From an uncultured Pelagibacteraceae bacterium (GTDB taxonomy: Bacteria; Pseudomonadota; Alphaproteobacteria; Pelagibacterales; Pelagibacteraceae), in the NCBI GenBank assembly GCA_902569285.1, contig CACFTS010000004.1, positions 1 to 51,346 of the forward strand: a DNA stretch of 51,346 nucleotides, given 5' to 3'. This document shows, one piece after another, positions 3,972-12,646 of the stretch (within the stretch, counting starts at the first letter, position 1; each line of letters begins with the position of its first letter). The translations under genes were made by a program, and so were the position numbers. A model generated the notes under the pieces. The model did no database searches. It saw only the letters and a program-made list of their open reading frames with translations, and had not been told where the DNA came from.

Positions 3972-5021
3972 ATGTCAAAGTTAACAATTTTAATTATTTT
4001 TATTTTTACTTATAATTCTCTCATAATTGCTATGGAAAAAAAACCTTACCACCATTTATCTGATGGTACTTTTAGAAATCCTGAAGGATCTCCTCTTAGA
4101 TCTGAAAATATTAAATGGTCATATAAAACATTTAATCAAGAAAAAAAGAAACTCGATATGACAGTTCCAAAGGAACACGTTGTTGCTAAAGACAAAGTTA
4201 AAGCTGATTTAGAAAAATTTAAAAATGACGATTATATTGCTTGGATCGGTCATGCCACTTTTCTAATTAAACTTGAAGAAACAACTATAATTACTGACCC
4301 CGTTTTCTCTAAAAATGCTGGTCCGCTAATCTTTGGACCAAAAAGATTTGTAGAACCAGCTTTAAAGCTAGATGAGATCCCAAAAACTGATATTTTTTTA
4401 TTAACTCATAATCATTACGATCATCAAGATATGTCAACTATTAGAAAATTCCCATTTAAAGATGCCAAAGTAATGCTTCCTTTAAAACTTGGTAAATACT
4501 TTAAAAGATATAAAGATGTCAATGAAATGGATTGGTATGATGAAATTAAAGTTAATGATAATTTAAAAATAACATTACTTCCAGCAGTTCATTGGTCAAA
4601 AAGAGGTTTAACAGATACTAATAAAACTCTTTGGGGAAATTTCTTAATTGAATACAAAAATAAAAAAATTTTATTTGGTTGTGATACAGGTTACGGAAAT
4701 ATCTATAAAGAATTAGGTGAAAAATATGGTCCTATTGATTTAGCCATGATTAATATTGGTGCTTATGATTTTAGACCAATGTTTGAAAAATCAGTTTATC
4801 ACACAACCCCTGAAGAAGCTTTACAAGTTGCACAAGATTTGAAAAGTAAAAAAGTTTTAGGAACTCATTGGGGTACATTTGTTCTATCTCTAGAACCAAT
4901 TATGGAACCACCTGTTCGATTTAAAGATAATGCTGAAAAATATGGATTTAAAAAAGAAGATGCTATTATTTTTAAAATTGGAGAAATAAATTCTCTTAAA
5001 AACTTATTAAATTATAATTAA
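3972..5021 (+). CDS. MBL-fold metallo-hydrolase, NAPE-PLD/UlaG-like
   Basis: WIGHATFLIKLEETTIITDPVFS, THNHYDHQD, HWSKRGLTDTNKTLWGNFLIE, GTHWGTF; putative signal peptide. Confidence 0.9.
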   Translation: MSKLTILIIFIFTYNSLIIAMEKKPYHHLSDGTFRNPEGSPLRSENIKWSYKTFNQEKKKLDMTVPKEHVVAKDKVKADLEKFKNDDYIAWIGHATFLIKLEETTIITDPVFSKNAGPLIFGPKRFVEPALKLDEIPKTDIFLLTHNHYDHQDMSTIRKFPFKDAKVMLPLKLGKYFKRYKDVNEMDWYDEIKVNDNLKITLLPAVHWSKRGLTDTNKTLWGNFLIEYKNKKILFGCDTGYGNIYKELGEKYGPIDLAMINIGAYDFRPMFEKSVYHTTPEEALQVAQDLKSKKVLGTHWGTFVLSLEPIMEPPVRFKDNAEKYGFKKEDAIIFKIGEINSLKNLLNYN

Positions 5022-5164
5022 TTATCTAAAATTTTCTTCTTAGCTTTTTCATTTATTTTATTTGAATTTTTAGCGCTAAGTCCTTTCATTATGGCACTAC
5101 CACCTAAGTAAATTATAAATGCCAAAATTGATATTGCTAAACCAAAAAAAATTATTGTTTCCAT
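5018..5164 (-). CDS. putative 48-aa small membrane protein (absent from the supplied ORF track)
   Basis: METIIFFGLAISILAFIIYLGGSAMMKGLSAKNSNKINEKAKKKILDN; fills the gap upstream of folD on the same strand. Confidence 0.5.
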   Translation of the reverse strand: METIIFFGLAISILAFIIYLGGSAIMKGLSAKNSNKINEKAKKKILDN

Positions 5165-5167
5165 AAA

Positions 5168-6013
5168 TTAATTTTGTGATCTTTTAAAACAGTCAATTGT
5201 ATTTTTAAGCAAACAAGCAATTGTCATAGGCCCTACACCGCCAGGAACTGGGGTTAAAGCTTTTGCATTTTTTGAAACCTCATCAAATGCTACATCACCA
5301 ACAATACCTTTGTCTGTTTTATTAATACCAACATCAATTACTATTGCATCTTTTTTAACCCAATCCCCTTTTACTAATTCAGGAATTCCAACAGCTGCAA
5401 CAATAATATCTGCCTCCAAACATTCAGCTTTTAAATCTTTAGTTTTGGAATGTGTGATTGTTACAGTACAATTTTCTTTTAGAAGAAGTTGTGTCATTGG
5501 CTTACCATTTAAATTTGATCTTCCAACTATAACTGCTTTCTTACCACTTAGATTTGGCTCAATTTTTTTTATTAGCAAATAACATCCTAGTGGAGTGCAA
5601 GGAACAGAACTTTCATAACCGGAAGAAAGATTTCCAACATTCATAGGATGAAAACCATCAACATCTTTTGAAGGATTAATTGCTTCAATTACTTTTTGTT
5701 TATCAATATGTTTTGGAAGAGGTAACTGAACTAAAATTCCTGAAACAGTTTCATCTTTGTTTAATTCTTCTATTTTATCTAATACAACTTTTTCTTCTAC
5801 AGAATCTGGGTACTTTATGACATCTGATTTAAGTCCTACTTCATTTGCTGACTTTTCTTTATTTCGAACATAAATTTGACTTGGTGCTAAATCACCAATT
5901 AAAATTACTGTTAATCCTGGGACTTTATTATATTTATTTTTTAAATCTGAAACTTCTTTCTTAAGCTCTTCTCTAAGTTCTGCTGCAGCTTTTTTTCCAT
6001 CAATTAAAATCAT
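5168..6013 (-). CDS. folD: bifunctional methylenetetrahydrofolate dehydrogenase/methenyltetrahydrofolate cyclohydrolase
   Basis: GILVQLPLPKHID, KDVDGFHPMNVG, VGRSNLNGKPMTQLLL, TPVPGGVGPMTIACLL. Confidence 0.97.
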   Translation of the reverse strand: MILIDGKKAAAELREELKKEVSDLKNKYNKVPGLTVILIGDLAPSQIYVRNKEKSANEVGLKSDVIKYPDSVEEKVVLDKIEELNKDETVSGILVQLPLPKHIDKQKVIEAINPSKDVDGFHPMNVGNLSSGYESSVPCTPLGCYLLIKKIEPNLSGKKAVIVGRSNLNGKPMTQLLLKENCTVTITHSKTKDLKAECLEADIIVAAVGIPELVKGDWVKKDAIVIDVGINKTDKGIVGDVAFDEVSKNAKALTPVPGGVGPMTIACLLKNTIDCFKRSQN

Positions 6014-6019
6014 AAATTT

Positions 6020-6310
6020 TTAGAATATTATTGGAGCAATGTAGAGCTTCATACACATTTCTATAAACCAAATCAATAGAAGTAAAATAATTGGTGAAAT
6101 ATCTAGAGCACCTAAATTTGGTAAAAAACCTCTAATTTTGTTTAAAATAGGATTAGTTAATCGGTAAGTAAATTCTAAAATAGAGTAAACAAACCTGTTT
6201 TGAGTATTCAAAATATTAAAGGCAATCAGCCAACTTATTATTACATTTGCAATAACTACATATGAGTAAAGTTTTAATATTTGTAAAACTAAATAAAAAA
6301 TTGCAATCAT
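6020..6310 (-). CDS. YggT family membrane protein
   Basis: Hydrophobic, ISWLIAFNILN...FTYRLTNPILNKIRGFLPNLGALDISPIILLLLI. Confidence 0.85.
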   Translation of the reverse strand: MIAIFYLVLQILKLYSYVVIANVIISWLIAFNILNTQNRFVYSILEFTYRLTNPILNKIRGFLPNLGALDISPIILLLLIWFIEMCMKLYIAPIIF

Positions 6311-7392
6311 TTTTTCTCTACATAAATAGATTGGCTTGGGAAAGCAAATGAAGCTTTATTTCTTTCAACTATTTGCTTAATTGAAATAGCAAGTCTTTCT
6401 TTAACTGCTAACCATTCATCCCAATCATCTGTTTTTGTAAAGCAACGAATATACATATCAATAGAACTATCAGCAAATTTATCTACTCTAACTGCATAGC
6501 CAAGGTCAGGCTTGTAGTCCTCATGTTTCTTTATGAAGTCCTCTATCTCATTTCTTATTGTTTTAAGTTGTTCAACAGTCGTGTCGTACTGTAAATTTAT
6601 TGTCCAACTAATAATCCAATTGGTTGTTTGGCTAATATTAATTACCGCATTTTCAGCAAATTGAAAATTTGGAATGATTGCAATCGATTTATCAAATTTA
6701 CGTACAACAGTTGATCTAAAACCTATTTTTTCAACAATCCCTTCTATTATGTCTTCTACAAGTATCCAATCTCCAATTTTAAATCTTTTTTCAACTAAAA
6801 CTAATATTCCGGAAATTAAATTTTTAAATAAATCTTGTGCTCCTAATGCAACGGCCACACCAAACAAACCTAGTCCTGCTATAATTGGTCCTATTTTTAT
6901 TCCCCAAAGTTCAAGAACTGCCGCTAAACCAAGAATAAAAATTAAAATTTTTAAGGATTTGATAATCCAGCCAATTAATTCTCGAGTTAAAACCTTACCT
7001 AAACCACTTAAAATATATGAAATTGGCTCTATTATTTGATGCATTATCCAAAAAATAAAAATAGTAATTAATGTTCTGTTTATTGTATCTACTATAGTTC
7101 TGCTATCTTCAGAGAAAGACATATAATAACTTGCAATAAAAAAACCTATAACAATTGGAAGAAATCTTGCTGGTCCTTCCATAGCTTTAACAAAAGTATC
7201 GTCGAGTTTATTACTAGTTTTTTTTGTTATACTTTCTAATCTTTTTATAATTACTCTACTCATGATTCCTCTAAAAATTAAAAAAATAAGAAAAATTGCA
7301 ATTCCAATTAAAATTTGAAATATATCTACTCCAAGAATTCCCTTATTCCATACAGACAAAAAAAGCTCTTTAAAATTATTAAAAATTTCCAT
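6307..7392 (-). CDS. mechanosensitive ion channel family protein (MscS-like)
   Basis: GLGLFGVAVALGAQDLFKNLISGILVLVEKRFKIGDWILVEDIIEGIVEKIGFRSTVVRKFD. Confidence 0.93.
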   Translation of the reverse strand: MEIFNNFKELFLSVWNKGILGVDIFQILIGIAIFLIFLIFRGIMSRVIIKRLESITKKTSNKLDDTFVKAMEGPARFLPIVIGFFIASYYMSFSEDSRTIVDTINRTLITIFIFWIMHQIIEPISYILSGLGKVLTRELIGWIIKSLKILIFILGLAAVLELWGIKIGPIIAGLGLFGVAVALGAQDLFKNLISGILVLVEKRFKIGDWILVEDIIEGIVEKIGFRSTVVRKFDKSIAIIPNFQFAENAVINISQTTNWIISWTINLQYDTTVEQLKTIRNEIEDFIKKHEDYKPDLGYAVRVDKFADSSIDMYIRCFTKTDDWDEWLAVKERLAISIKQIVERNKASFAFPSQSIYVEKK

Positions 7393-7394
7393 AA

Positions 7395-8093
7395 CTAAAT
7401 TTTATATAACAAAAATTCCTCTTCTCCAGGACTAAAAAGAAAAATCTTTTTCCATTTAATTTCGTTCAATATTGACGAGGTTTTTTCACCTATACACATT
7501 AAATTTGTATTCATCCAAAGACTTTCAAATTGATAAATCTTTATAAAACTTAAAAAACTAGAAGCACTATTTTGTGAATAAATATAAACTATATCAGGTA
7601 TCTTTAATTTTAACTCTTTAACAAAATTTTCGTCAAATTTTTTATTATGATTAATTTTATAATTTACTATTCTTTGAATACTATAACCTTGTTTTAAAAG
7701 TTGTTGATCAAGATCAAAAGAAATAATTTCTCCACTTACATAAATTAATTTTCCATCTTTTGGATCAAAATTTTGCAGAATCAATTCTTTCAAATTATTA
7801 ACATTGCCCTCAGCTGAAATTACATTTTGAAAACCAACACTTCTTGCTTTTTTTTCAGTTGTATTACCAACACAAAAACATAAAAGTTTTTTATCAATAT
7901 TTTTAAAATCTAAAAACTTAATAGCATTAGCACTCGTAAAAATAATACCTTTATAATCTAAAAATTTTATTTCTTCATACTTCAATGGCTCAACATTTAT
8001 TAAAGGAAGGTGAGAAACTTGATGTCCTAATGATCTAAATTTTAAAATCATTTCAGAACAATCTTCTAGTGGTCTAGTCAACAAAATATGCAT
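7395..8093 (-). CDS. hemD: uroporphyrinogen-III synthase
   Basis: LLTRPLEDCSEM N-terminus, IIFTSANAIKFL, adjacent to hemC. Confidence 0.85.
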   Translation of the reverse strand: MHILLTRPLEDCSEMILKFRSLGHQVSHLPLINVEPLKYEEIKFLDYKGIIFTSANAIKFLDFKNIDKKLLCFCVGNTTEKKARSVGFQNVISAEGNVNNLKELILQNFDPKDGKLIYVSGEIISFDLDQQLLKQGYSIQRIVNYKINHNKKFDENFVKELKLKIPDIVYIYSQNSASSFLSFIKIYQFESLWMNTNLMCIGEKTSSILNEIKWKKIFLFSPGEEEFLLYKI

Positions 8094-8094
8094 A

Positions 8095-9012
8095 TTATCT
8101 TTTGTAAGAATTATTTGATTTTTTTTTTAACACTTCACCTACTTCTATGCCGAGTTCTTTTGCATTATTTATTTTTGAAGATCTTTTTTCATAAAATCTT
8201 TTTAAACCATCTAATGAAAAAAGTTCTGCTTCTAAGATAATTTTGTCTCCTTCTATCATGGCATGAACTCCAATAGCTGTTTCACAATCACCTTCCAAAA
8301 CTTTCAAAACATTTCTTTCAGCATAAGCCCTTAAAGAAGTTTCTTTGTGATTTATCTTATCTAAAATAGAAATAATTTCATTATCATCCTTACGACATTG
8401 AAGAGCAATAATTCCTTGACCCGCACTTGGAATTAGTTCTTGAGTTGAAAAAATCTCAGTAATTTTATCCTCAACTTTTAACGATTTCATTCCTGCACAA
8501 GATAAAATTATTGCATCATATAGTCCATCATTTAATTTTTTAATCCTTGTATCAACATTTCCTCTAATAAGTTTACAATTAAAATCATTTCTAATTTTTT
8601 TAATCTGAAACTCTCTTCGATAAGATGAGGTTCCAATTATTGAATTAAACTTTAATTCTTTAAGTTTTTTTTTGTTATTAGAAATTAAAATTTCTCTTGG
8701 ATCATTTCTTTCTAAAAATGTATCTATTCTTAAACCATCAGTTTCTAAAGCAGGTAAATCTTTTAAAGCATGCACAGCTATATCAATTTTTTTTTCTTGA
8801 AGTTCTTTTTCTATGTTTGTTGAAAATAAACCTTTGCCACCAGCCTCTGATAATCTAACATCTTGAACCTGATCACCTTTAGTTTTTATTTCTTTAATTA
8901 TAATGTCATCATCATTAAATTTTGTATTTTGAATAATCTTATCTTTTGCTTTTTGAGCATAAATAAGAGCTAATTTACTTCCTCTTGATCCAATAATAAT
9001 TTTACTTTTCAT
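8095..9012 (-). CDS. hemC: hydroxymethylbilane synthase
   Basis: IGSRGSKLALIYAQ, AVHALKDLPA, GTSSYRREFQIKK, PSAGQGIIALQCR, EGDCETAIGVHA. Confidence 0.97.
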   Translation of the reverse strand: MKSKIIIGSRGSKLALIYAQKAKDKIIQNTKFNDDDIIIKEIKTKGDQVQDVRLSEAGGKGLFSTNIEKELQEKKIDIAVHALKDLPALETDGLRIDTFLERNDPREILISNNKKKLKELKFNSIIGTSSYRREFQIKKIRNDFNCKLIRGNVDTRIKKLNDGLYDAIILSCAGMKSLKVEDKITEIFSTQELIPSAGQGIIALQCRKDDNEIISILDKINHKETSLRAYAERNVLKVLEGDCETAIGVHAMIEGDKIILEAELFSLDGLKRFYEKRSSKINNAKELGIEVGEVLKKKSNNSYKR

Positions 9013-9065
9013 AAAATTTATTTCTTATTTGTATAAAGATTGTACTATTATTAAAAACTATTTGA

Positions 9066-10139
9066 ATGAGCAAAAAAACTATAATTCTTGGAATTGAATC
9101 TAGCTGCGATGAAACAGCTGCATCTATATTAACTGAAAATCAACATGGTATACCAACAATTTTATCTAATATAATATCGAGCCAAGTAGATGTACATAAA
9201 GAGTTTGGTGGAGTGGTACCTGAACTTGCAGCACGTTCCCACATCGAAAAAATTGATTGGATAGTAGAAAAAGCAATAAAAGATAGTGGAAAAAAATTAG
9301 AAGATATAGATGCTATTGCATCAACTGCTGGACCTGGTTTAATTGTTTGTTTATCTGTAGGATTAAGTTTTGGTAAAGCTTTAGCTTTATCTCTTAACAA
9401 ACCTTTTATAGCTGTTAATCATTTAGAAGGTCATGCTTTAAGTCCAAAACTAAATTCTCAATTAGATTATCCTTATCTTTTATTATTAATTTCAGGAGGT
9501 CATTCTCAATTTTTAAGTGTTGAAGGATTGGGAAAATATAAAAGACTTGGAACAACTATTGATGATGCTTTAGGTGAAGCTTTTGATAAAACTGCAAAAA
9601 TTTTAGGAATTGAATTTCCTGGTGGTCCACAAATTGAAATTCTAGCTAAAAAAGGTAATCCAAATAAATATGAACTACCAAAACCAATTTTTAACAGAGG
9701 TGGGTGTAATTTATCTTTTGCGGGATTAAAAACAGCTATATTAAAAATTTCTAAAACATTAAAAACAGATCAAGATAAATATAATCTTGCAGCTTCATTT
9801 CAAAAAACAATTGAAGAAATACTAAATAAAAAAACCAAAATCGCTTTTGAAGAATTCAAAAAAAAGAACAATACAAAAACTAATCATTTTGTAGTAGCGG
9901 GTGGAGTTGCTGCTAACAAAAAAATTAGAGAAATATTAATAAATCTTTGCAAAAAAGAAAACTTTAAACCTATATTTCCTCCAAAAGAATTATGTGGTGA
10001 TAATGCAGCTATGATTGCAATGGTTGGATTAGAAAAATATAAATTAAATCAATTTACAAAACTAGATCATCCTGCAATCCCAAGATGGCCTTTGGATGAA
10101 AGCGCAGCTTTTCTTAAAGGCGCTGGCGTAAAATTTTAG
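9066..10139 (+). CDS. tsaD: tRNA N6-adenosine threonylcarbamoyltransferase
   Basis: LGIESSCDETAASIL, NHLEGHALSP, LLISGGHSQFL, VAGGVAANKKIRE. Confidence 0.97.
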   Translation: MSKKTIILGIESSCDETAASILTENQHGIPTILSNIISSQVDVHKEFGGVVPELAARSHIEKIDWIVEKAIKDSGKKLEDIDAIASTAGPGLIVCLSVGLSFGKALALSLNKPFIAVNHLEGHALSPKLNSQLDYPYLLLLISGGHSQFLSVEGLGKYKRLGTTIDDALGEAFDKTAKILGIEFPGGPQIEILAKKGNPNKYELPKPIFNRGGCNLSFAGLKTAILKISKTLKTDQDKYNLAASFQKTIEEILNKKTKIAFEEFKKKNNTKTNHFVVAGGVAANKKIREILINLCKKENFKPIFPPKELCGDNAAMIAMVGLEKYKLNQFTKLDHPAIPRWPLDESAAFLKGAGVKF

Positions 10140-10167
10140 AGGCGTTCTGTTGCCAGGTGCCCCGAAC
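10139..10167. repeat. Outer direct repeat A (left copy)
   Basis: gaggcgttctgttgccaggtgccccgaac; 23-bp core ggcgttctgttgccaggtgcccc (10141-10163) identical to 10853-10875. Confidence 0.9.
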
Positions 10168-10220
10168 TTTGTAGCATTATTCGTGAATAATTTGAATTGA
10201 AAAACGACTATTTTAACTAA

Positions 10221-10242
10221 AATCCCGTACATATCCCGTACA
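10221..10242. repeat. Inner direct repeat B (left copy)
   Basis: aatcccgtacatatcccgtaca, identical to 10784-10805; itself two tcccgtaca units at 11-bp period. Confidence 0.95.
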
Positions 10243-10268
10243 GAATTTTTATGTTAAGATTTTATTGA

Positions 10269-10781
10269 ATGAAAAAAAATATAGAATTTAAAAGATTTGT
10301 TAATAAAAAAGCCGATCCAGAAGAACTCAAAATTGTTAAATCATTATCTAAAAAATTTTTTATTTATTTAAACAAAAAAGAAATAGTTGAAAAATTAAAG
10401 TCTATTCACACTTTAGGTAACAGTAGTCAAAAAATTCAAGATATATTTATAAGTCATTTAAAAGAAGCAGGGTTTGAAAGTGAGAAAAAAGGTTTGTTTA
10501 AAAATTATAATTCTCAATTGAGACCTGATTATTATAAAAAATTAAAAAAAAGTGGCATCATACTTGAGGTTGAAAGAGGCAAAACTTTAAAAAATAATAT
10601 GGATTTATTAGATGTTTGGAAGTGCCATATATGCAAAGAAGCAAACCACTTATTTTTAGTTATACCAAAAGATGTGAGTCATACTCCAAATTGTTTTAGT
10701 TATAGCTCAAAAAGACTAGGACTGTTTTTTTTAAAAGAAAATTATATTAATATAGATAGCTTAACTATATTTGGATATTGA
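10269..10781 (+). CDS. putative stand-alone PD-(D/E)XK-superfamily nuclease
   Basis: LRPDYYKKLKKSGIILEVERGKTLKNNMDLLDVWKCHICKEANHLFLVIP fits D...ExE plus a conserved core, as in restriction-endonuclease-like proteins; flanked by direct repeats. Confidence 0.6.
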   Translation: MKKNIEFKRFVNKKADPEELKIVKSLSKKFFIYLNKKEIVEKLKSIHTLGNSSQKIQDIFISHLKEAGFESEKKGLFKNYNSQLRPDYYKKLKKSGIILEVERGKTLKNNMDLLDVWKCHICKEANHLFLVIPKDVSHTPNCFSYSSKRLGLFFLKENYINIDSLTIFGY

Positions 10782-10783
10782 AT

Positions 10784-10805
10784 AATCCCGTACATATCCC
10801 GTACA
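10784..10805. repeat. Inner direct repeat B (right copy)
   Basis: aatcccgtacatatcccgtaca, starts 2 nt after the ORF stop. Confidence 0.95.
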
Positions 10806-10850
10806 CAATTTGTTAACGATAATATTTTATGGATTATTTTTAGTTTTAAA

Positions 10851-10879
10851 GGGGCGTTCTGTTGCCAGGTGCCCCAAAC
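10851..10879. repeat. Outer direct repeat A (right copy)
   Basis: ggggcgttctgttgccaggtgccccaaac; GGGGC/GCCCC ends can pair. Confidence 0.9.
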
Positions 10880-10905
10880 CCCTAAACTAAATAATAAAAA
10901 ATTAA

Positions 10906-11973
10906 TTAAGCTTTAGTTCTATAATCCTTTATATGTTCTGGAATACGTTTATTTTTTCCAAACATATAATGATTGTCCATTTTTTCTCTATATTTACTAG
11001 CAGGCACTGTTAATCCAACTGCTTCAGCAACTTCTCTTATTAACATTGGATTTGCACCACAACAAACACCTAAATAGTTTATTCCTAAACTATAAGCCTC
11101 TTTTGCAAATTGACCAATTTCATATCTATTGCACTGCATAGGATCTAAAGCTGTAGGAAAAGTTGTTTCATGAGGTGAATGACAAAAACATCCATTATTA
11201 TCTGGTAAATTAAAAAAAGTAGGATGATTTTCAGTTGTTCTATAAGTTATAGGTAATCCTGCCACATGACATTTTAATGCTTTTCTAATCTCTTTTAGAT
11301 AAGGCATCATTGTATTAATTCCTCTATGACAGTTCATCCCAACAACATCACCACCTCTCTGTTCTAATTCTTTACAGGTATCAAGAATTGAAACATCATC
11401 TCTCATAATATTTTGACCATAAGGAGCTATGGTAATTACAGAAGGAAGTCCCGTTTCTTTCATCACTTTTAATGCTGTATAAGCTTCTTCAGCATAATAA
11501 AAAGTTTCTCCAATTAATATATCGGCTCCCTCTTCAACTGCCCATGTAACCATTTCTCTAAACATTTTTTCTACTTCTAATTGGGCTTTTTTATCATTTT
11601 GATTCCAAATATTTGAATTTGAAATATTACCAGCCATTAAATTTTCTTCACCTACGAGTGGACTAGTTGCAACTTTTTTTGCAATTTTTAATGCTGCTCT
11701 ATTAAGAGGTTCTAATAATTCCTCTTTGCCAATAACTCGCATTTTTTCTCTATGTCCATTATATGTAAAGGCCTGAACGATATCTGATCCAGCATGTTGA
11801 AAATCTCTATGCAAATTTTCTAATGCTTCTGGATGTTCCAAAGAAACCATAGGAACAAACTCTCCAGACGACATATATCCTCTTTTCTCTATTTCAAAAA
11901 GAAATCCTTCAGCACAAATAACTGGCCCTGAGTTTAATCTATCGATTAAACCTTTTTTATTTTCTTTACTCAT
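10906..11973 (-). CDS. bhmT: betaine/homocysteine S-methyltransferase family protein
   Basis: VICAEGFLFEIEKRGYMSSGEFVPM, VVGMNCHRGI, GVCCGANP Zn-binding Cys motif. Confidence 0.88.
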   Translation of the reverse strand: MSKENKKGLIDRLNSGPVICAEGFLFEIEKRGYMSSGEFVPMVSLEHPEALENLHRDFQHAGSDIVQAFTYNGHREKMRVIGKEELLEPLNRAALKIAKKVATSPLVGEENLMAGNISNSNIWNQNDKKAQLEVEKMFREMVTWAVEEGADILIGETFYYAEEAYTALKVMKETGLPSVITIAPYGQNIMRDDVSILDTCKELEQRGGDVVGMNCHRGINTMMPYLKEIRKALKCHVAGLPITYRTTENHPTFFNLPDNNGCFCHSPHETTFPTALDPMQCNRYEIGQFAKEAYSLGINYLGVCCGANPMLIREVAEAVGLTVPASKYREKMDNHYMFGKNKRIPEHIKDYRTKA

Positions 11974-11979
11974 CTTCTT

Positions 11980-12034
11980 CTCCTTTTTAGTGCTTTGACA
12001 TATGTCGGGTGCACAATTTGGTTAAATAACCCGG
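11980..12034 (-). promoter_or_regulatory. SAM-V riboswitch aptamer overlapping the RBS
   Basis: Minus-strand RNA CCGGGUUAUUUAACCAAAUUGUGCACCCGACAUAUGUCAAAGCACUAAAAAGGAGAAGAAGAUG; recognisable SAM-V core directly before the bhmT start. Confidence 0.85.
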
Positions 12035-12051
12035 TTTTTTTTAATTAAAGT

Positions 12052-12081
12052 AAAAAAAAACCACCTGAAAAATAGGTGGTT
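12052..12081 (-). terminator. Intrinsic terminator between the two SAM aptamers
   Basis: Minus-strand AACCACCT-ATTTTTC-AGGTGGTT followed by T run. Confidence 0.9.
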
Positions 12082-12092
12082 CCATAGAAACA

Positions 12093-12145
12093 TCTATTTA
12101 GCAGGTTTTATAAAGCGCCCGCAATTTGACTTAAATCGGCGCTGA
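12093..12145 (-). promoter_or_regulatory. SAM-II riboswitch aptamer
   Basis: Minus-strand AGCGCCGAUUUAAGUCAAAUUGCGGGCGCUUUAUAAAACCUGCUAAAUAG matches the SAM-II layout (GCGC..GAUUUAA..UUGC.GGCGC..AUAAA..GCUAAA). Confidence 0.88.
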
Positions 12146-12226
12146 ATTAAAGTTAACACAAAACTAATATAAAAGCAAATAATTAAGAATATTGTTTTTT
12201 GTTAAAAAAAATTTATCCTATAAATT

Positions 12227-12646
12227 ATGGCAAGATCCTATTTTCTAATAAAATCTGAACCTGATGTCTGGTCTATTGAACAACAGAAAAAGGCTGGAAA
12301 CAAAGGAACACCTTGGGATGGTGTTAGAAATTATCAAGCAGCAAAAAATTTAAAAGCTATGAAAAAGGGTGATCAATGTTTTTTTTACCACTCAAATATT
12401 GGAAAGGAAATTGTAGGAATAGTTGAAGTAATAAAAGAACATTACTTAGATAAAACAGACCAATCTGGTCGGTTTGTTGCTGTTACAGTTAAATTTTTAA
12501 AAAAATTAAATAAACCAATAACCCTTGAAAGAATTAAAAAAAACAAGAAATTAAGCCATTTATCACTTATAAAACAAAGTCGTCTATCTGTAATGCCAAT
12601 AGACTCTAAAAGCTGGAAAATCCTAAATAACATGGGTAAGATTTAA
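12227..12646 (+). CDS. EVE domain-containing protein
   Basis: [46 protein letters not shown]. Confidence 0.95.

Follow-up and report, generated by a model that had tools for sequence, protein, structure and literature searches.

Dehalococcoides genomes carry large islands that lie in tandem after ssrA, the tmRNA gene, and each of them terminates in a directly repeated copy of the ssrA 3′ end. Sixteen of these islands possess a serine-recombinase module, and 15 islands without an integration module have been proposed as possible cis-mobilizable elements (PMC3146451; PMC2764846). CIMEs and the accretion of elements at tRNA and tmRNA genes also involve att-flanked cargo that is devoid of recombination or transfer genes and accumulates in tandem. 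In the streamlined aquatic genome of Methylopumilus, the additive flexible island at tRNA-Lys is a variable region with recurring 20-bp repeats of the RNA-gene end (PMC10872708). Tycheposons, which are included in a listing of satellites (PMC11389934), bring cargo to RNA-gene sites in the streamlined marine host Prochlorococcus; they are 4-200 kb long and carry a tRNA and a tyrosine recombinase (PMC10872708, PMC11389934). CALINs are arrays of promiscuous small cassettes, which need a recombinase from elsewhere (PMC11389934).

We analyzed a stretch of 51,346 nucleotides (hereafter, the window) from an uncultured Pelagibacteraceae bacterium, the source genome of which is 59% complete. Downstream of tsaD, the window contains a small cassette with a nuclease gene, and related cassettes were found in other SAR11 genomes. 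The closest precedent for the SAR11 cassettes appears to be the integrase-less Dehalococcoides ssrA islands, which are likewise arranged in tandem after ssrA and ended by its 3′ end. However, most SAR11 cassettes contain a single gene, none was found to encode a recombinase, and they add cassette-specific arm-type sites and second host sites (rnhA and bhmT). They share the att-flanked cargo with CIMEs, but a related autonomous element was not detected at the SAR11 site, and the ends are kept as a unit while the cargo is swapped. The Methylopumilus island uses another host RNA gene, and arms and conserved ends were not seen described there (PMC10872708). Tycheposons have comparable hosts, RNA-gene sites and a tyrosine-recombinase logic, whereas the SAR11 cassettes are mostly <2 kb and carry neither a tRNA nor a recombinase. 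In contrast to the CALIN arrays with their attC sites, the SAR11 site is best explained as an ssrA-derived core with arms. The SAR11 cassettes differ from these precedents in being mostly of single-gene size, in the lack of a recombinase found in cis, in their conserved ends with swappable cargo, and in having arms specific to each cassette as well as secondary host sites. Within the open-access literature, to which our search was confined, no description of such cassettes in SAR11 was found.

Results

Arrangement of the tsaD locus

A preliminary description of this DNA had placed two nested pairs of direct repeats, A and B, around an ORF encoding a 170-aa protein, between tsaD and bhmT. The coordinates were re-derived, and the repeats, the ORF and both neighboring genes were located as described. 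The features of the locus are listed below, with the strand in parentheses.

9066-10139 (+): tsaD; its stop codon abuts the putative distal att core A1
10139-10163 (-): repeat A, putative distal attachment core (A1) of the ‘type I’ family, which copies the ssrA 3′ end; aligned with other cassettes
10160-10220 (-): ‘type I’ conserved end, TTCAAATTATTCRCGAATAATGNTACAAAGTTCGGGG, linking the A1 core to the arm
10222-10242 (-): repeat B, putative arm-type site, TGTACGGGATA + TGTACGGGAT, preceding the A1 core by 84 bp in the ssrA orientation
10269-10781 (+): cargo ORF, predicted 170-aa BamHI-like PD-(D/E)XK nuclease
10785-10805 (-): repeat B′, second putative arm-type site, 65 bp after the start of the A′ core in the ssrA orientation
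10806-10850 (-): conserved cassette end from arm to core, mean identity 87% in five genomes and 37% beyond the arm
10851-10875 (-): repeat A′, putative proximal attachment core A0
10850-10912 (-): ssrA 3′-end segment joined to bhmT at the stop codon; of 61 aligned bases, 57 agree with an ssrA end
10906-11973 (-): bhmT (betaine-homocysteine methyltransferase), within the 2.1 kb inserted between tsaD and the EVE-family gene
11977-12041 (-): SAM-V riboswitch of bhmT (Rfam RF01826, 58.3 bits)
12227-12646 (+): EVE-family gene, directly after tsaD in relatives; far edge of the insertion

The two copies of A (10138-10167 and 10850-10879) form a direct pair of 30 nt with 93% identity and a spacing of 712, within which a 23-bp core is identical (10141-10163 and 10853-10875). 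The A block as previously drawn begins at the final base of the tsaD stop codon. The B pair (10221-10248 and 10784-10811) is also direct, with 96% identity over 28 nt and a spacing of 563. Each B copy is a tandem of ATCCCGTACAT and ATCCCGTACA with a period of 11 bp, which reads on the minus strand as two 10-mers, TGTACGGGATA and TGTACGGGAT, 11 bp apart. When up to 3 mismatches were allowed, the chance expectation was 0.00 for the A and for the B matches. The ORF is intact and is the only one in the cassette (10139-10875), which contains no recombinase or transfer gene. Terminal inverted repeats, by which an IS or a MITE is recognized, were not present in the cassette, the repeats being direct.

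Insertion site and the bhmT fusion

The EVE gene (marker KSEPDVWSI) begins no more than a few nt from the end of tsaD in 22 of 29 relatives, which represents the empty site, and none of the relatives has A at this position. The true insertion between tsaD and the next gene is 10140-12226 (about 2.1 kb) and comprises A, the nuclease cassette, A′, bhmT and the SAM-V riboswitch. A′ is not a free repeat but part of a 61-63 nt ssrA 3′ end, which is joined to bhmT within the shared heptamer AGCTTAA. The same kind of tail is present on the bhmT gene of another genome at another locus (G121, L183), where 58 of 61 aligned bases match the ssrA end, and is absent from a 95% identical bhmT (G022, L181). 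We therefore infer that the ssrA attachment site was carried to bhmT first, by a separate event, and that the cassette used this site afterwards.

Upstream of the SAM-V riboswitch (window 12080-12146), a hairpin with a T-run and a GCGCC..GGCGC segment resembling SAM-II were observed. SAM-V alone passed the Rfam gathering score in this region.

Repeat A and the 3′ end of ssrA

Judged by its sequence, repeat A is a copy of the ssrA 3′ end. Its copies at the tested SAR11 loci match the terminal part of RF01849, the Rfam model for alphaproteobacterial tmRNA (alpha_tmRNA), and one locus (L007) carries a complete ssrA (224.6 bits) that ends in A. A pattern scan detected A in 131 of 151 SAR11-genus genomes, and the reversed control pattern gave 1 match in the whole list. 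A is single-copy in many of the genomes and is arranged in chains in others. In the chains (L015, L016, L018-L020, L024-L026, L030 and L031), ssrA comes first and is followed by A copies in the same orientation, with one or a few genes between them. We refer to the 41 intervals between neighboring cores as cassettes; their median length is 0.73 kb, and the extremes are 0.29 and 5.8 kb.

The 3′ end of rnhA is a second host site. A single core at one locus (L028) and an occupied site at another (L032) form an empty/occupied pair, and decaying cores are present in several relatives. Further host sites were found at other genes (L014, L017 and L021). An A-like core 4-8 nt past the rnhA stop codon, from intact to decayed, was also seen in many SAR11 genomes (L212, L220, L224, L226, L230, L231 and others).

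Arm sequences and conserved ends

If A is the attachment core of an integrase, arm-type sites are expected at a fixed distance at each cassette end. Of 41 cassettes, 6 had matched 21-mers (at least 18 of 21) near both ends; among 1640 mismatched pairs, 9 reached this level. The arm sequence varies from cassette to cassette. Matched arms were weak or absent in about three quarters of the 41 cassettes, which suggests that many of them have decayed.

Cassettes with the arm of the window: The exact arm (up to 3 mismatches) was found in 6 of 399 genomes, and the reversed control gave 0. It is located at exactly +65 and -84 from the cores in four two-ended cassettes (the window, G712, G589 and G803), and G146 has a window-type arm at +65 from the ssrA core. 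A lone diverged copy (2 mismatches) near rnhA in G804 has no core at that spacing. The host sites are rnhA in three cases, ssrA in one and, in the window, the ssrA tail borne by bhmT. Cassettes sharing this arm are 87-96% identical through the arm. Further inward, the identity falls to 33-37% (47% in the first 66 bp on the inner side of the right arm), and the ‘type I’ stretch of the ends is 90% identical.

‘Type I’ ends: This end gave 29 matches in 27 of 399 SAR11-genus genomes, with 0 for the reversed-pattern control. A period-11 tandem arm was present at -43 to -49 from the end motif in all 29. The arm sequences fall into the classes TGTACGGGAT, TGGCAC, TCCGCACT, TGGCGTC and others.

Own-arm matching: When the left arm was read at position +65 in every cassette, the cassette's own right arm matched at 16 or more of 21 positions in 13 of 21 cassettes, versus 49 of 420 cross pairs, many of which belong to the same class. 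None of 20000 permutations reached the observed total. These comparisons are strong evidence that both ends of a cassette arise and function as a pair, the arms being the cassette-specific part. B is best read as behaving like the arm-type sites of an integrase. The A-to-A′ and B-to-B′ stretches had been offered as alternative units; instead, both repeats appear to belong to a single attachment site, in which A is the core for recombination and B the arm site beside it.

tRNA-Ser chain: In another marine alphaproteobacterium (L008, 1845-4121), a chain of tRNA-Ser(GGA) 3′ halves surrounds a 57% identical relative of the nuclease, and an arm-like tandem, TGGCTACACATAGGCTACACT, is present on both sides. 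Thus, the core-plus-arms layout is not confined to ssrA.

Cargo of the cassettes

The cassettes with the arm of the window carry unrelated genes. The cargo is a UvrD/GajB-like helicase with three small ORFs in G712, an MrcB-N/HNH protein with a BRCT protein in G589, and an acyl carrier protein with an AMP-binding (acyl-CoA) ligase in G146. The G803 cassette (L267, 4188-4657) is only 0.47 kb long, possesses both ends and both arms, has no credible gene and is MITE-like. A 5.8-kb ssrA cassette with exact arms, CACGAAGTTTTACACGAAGTTT (L171, about 4500-10800), contains a type I restriction-modification system, and the cargo of another (L174, 2347-3816) is a GIY-YIG/NUMOD endonuclease.

The nuclease

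The AlphaFold model of the 170-aa protein had a pLDDT of 79 and a pTM of 0.80. In Foldseek, the model matched OkrAI (3odh; E 4e-4, prob 1.00, TM 0.51), BamHI (1esg; E 1.4e-3) and BglII. E72, P86-D87 and E100-x-E102 are invariant in 7 homologues. We take E72, D87, E100 and E102 to correspond to E77, D94, E111 and E113 of BamHI (E-D-ExE), the residues being matched by order only. Thus, the ORF product is predicted, by fold and active-site pattern, to be a BamHI-like PD-(D/E)XK nuclease, in line with the fold class expected beforehand. In contrast to BamHI, OkrAI and BglII, to which its identity is about 14%, it is solitary, without a methylase partner.

Between the nuclease gene of the window and the copy at L006, 24 codon changes are synonymous and 7 are non-synonymous, which indicates purifying selection. 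The two copies are 96% (aa) and 93.5% (nt) identical, whereas the neighboring M23 gene of the same genomes is 77% (aa) and 76.3% (nt) identical. The nuclease is therefore far closer than its neighbor, and a recent transfer is suggested. The same nuclease (94-96% aa) is present in three cassettes of three end types, where the homology stops at the ORF. All four marine alphaproteobacterial loci found for the nuclease (the window, L006, L007 and L008) are cassettes bounded by RNA-gene tails. Such repeats are lacking around its relatives in Hydrogenedentota and Flavobacterium.

No convincing family was found in Pfam, NCBIfam, PADLOC or PHROGs, and no match was found in the phage and plasmid collections. 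An identity as AbiEi/AbiGI was considered; the matches were weak and were taken as noise. No cognate methyltransferase, which a type II restriction-modification system would include, is encoded within the cassette. Since no methylase lies beside the nuclease, a stand-alone restriction-like defence is favored as the function of this cargo, at about an even chance.

A 402-aa protein encoded in a high-GC prophage-like contig (L178, 2227-3435) combines an ankyrin-like N-terminus with a C-terminal part related to the nuclease.

Search for a recombinase

PF00589 proteins in the 151 genomes of the genus were Xer-size proteins or prophage integrases at tRNA genes, and none was located at the A arrays. 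Among the ORFs of 61 cassette loci, there was no homologue of the SAR11 integrases. The PF00589 search also returned no integrase inside the arrays or in prophages near ssrA. No related autonomous helper at the same site was found in the 151 genomes or in viral contigs. Thus, either a recombinase would work in trans or the system has fallen silent.

In the IMG/VR viral contigs, neither the arm nor the ‘type I’ end was matched, and no contig carries a cassette end. The contigs with a full A were considered as helper phages, but they are phage contigs encoding their own tmRNA; the remaining core matches look like chance matches.

Eight marine viral contigs (L079, L083, L104, L087, L089, L113, L127 and L099) encode a permuted tmRNA of the alphaproteobacterial type with the tag ADENLALAA, located for example at 10573-10892 in L079 (a 243-kb contig), 9783-10102 in L083 and 1628-1948 in L104. 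Several SAR11 genomes (L158-L167) contain prophage-like blocks, in which integrases of 420-550 aa lie beside tRNA genes, often tRNA-Leu.

Discussion

The segment 10139-10875 is probably a non-autonomous integrative gene cassette that is moved in trans by a recombinase of the tyrosine type, a class assigned solely from the att architecture. As in known attachment sites, the core lies in the 3′ end of an RNA gene (the last bases of RF01849), and repeated arms are present on both sides at a fixed distance. The proposal of a mobile-type unit bounded by nested direct repeats is supported, and both the repeats and the ORF recur at other loci.

The two cassette ends may be the halves of one attP, consisting of an ssrA-type core, a conserved stretch of 40-60 bp and paired arms spaced by 11 bp. 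A helper recombinase from a phage, a satellite or another element would act on them in trans. The cassette would be excised as a circle, B′-A-B, with the crossover inside AACAGAACGCCCC, and any core of the ssrA type could receive the circle. Among the many identical cores, the recombinase would recognize a matching pair by the arms, so that a chain could release single cassettes. In the window, the target core would be the ssrA 3′ end that had earlier been fused to bhmT.

Immobile CIME-like relics are a rather unlikely alternative, in which phage or island insertions at ssrA have lost the integrase and most genes, and homologous recombination between A copies shuffles the pieces. The absence of an integrase from every cassette and the degeneration of many cores and arms are in agreement with it, and 15 integrase-less Dehalococcoides islands have been read in this way (PMC3146451). 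However, relics would not be expected to keep their ends at 87-96% identity and exact spacing while the cargo is wholly replaced, even in the gene-less 0.47-kb cassette. Moreover, homologous recombination over ends of about 90 bp leaves unexplained why the two arms within a cassette resemble each other and not the arms of other cassettes. The preliminary description had also considered homing, in which the endonuclease cuts the A or B site and repair copies the cassette in. The predicted nuclease fold, the occurrence of the nuclease in cassettes at four of four marine alphaproteobacterial loci and the GIY-YIG/NUMOD endonuclease in one other cassette are compatible with such movement. Nevertheless, it is very improbable, because the same two ends surround unrelated cargo or no gene, without any nuclease, in G712, G803 and G146, because the same nuclease is present in cassettes with different ends and arms, and because its relatives from Hydrogenedentota and Flavobacterium lack the repeats.

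Two further explanations concern the nature of the repeats. The capacity of A to fold into a hairpin and its role in delimiting one-gene cassettes in chains recall an integron-like CALIN array, in which A would be an attC-type folded single-strand site. We give this almost no credence: A is an ssrA 3′ end, and the paired arms outside the core are foreign to attC. An unusually stable hairpin was considered and rejected, the fold being barely better than those of shuffles (z -1.0). In addition, the cassette genes lie in both orientations (42 versus 17). It could also be that neither repeat is a recombination site, A being a dispersed hairpin terminator and B an operator that regulates the nuclease; the position of A copies just after the stop codons of the ssrA tag frame, bhmT and rnhA would fit a terminator. 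This, too, has scarcely any probability, since the distance of B is fixed to A and not to any ORF, B is identical around unrelated cargo or no gene, and the A chains delimit strain-specific genes.

SAR11 bacteria are among the most abundant bacteria of the ocean, and mobile elements are usually said to be almost absent from their streamlined genomes. It is conceivable, at somewhat less than an even chance, that SAR11 possesses its own parallel to the integron, with a shared ssrA-type core, a variable arm as the ‘address’, a family of trans-acting recombinases differing in arm recognition, and cargo enriched in anti-phage functions. Whether the variable arm site chooses which of the many identical cores recombine is a directly testable question. 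Small cassettes of genus-wide occurrence, with swappable and often defence-like cargo, would provide these bacteria with a concrete means of exchanging genes and resisting phages.
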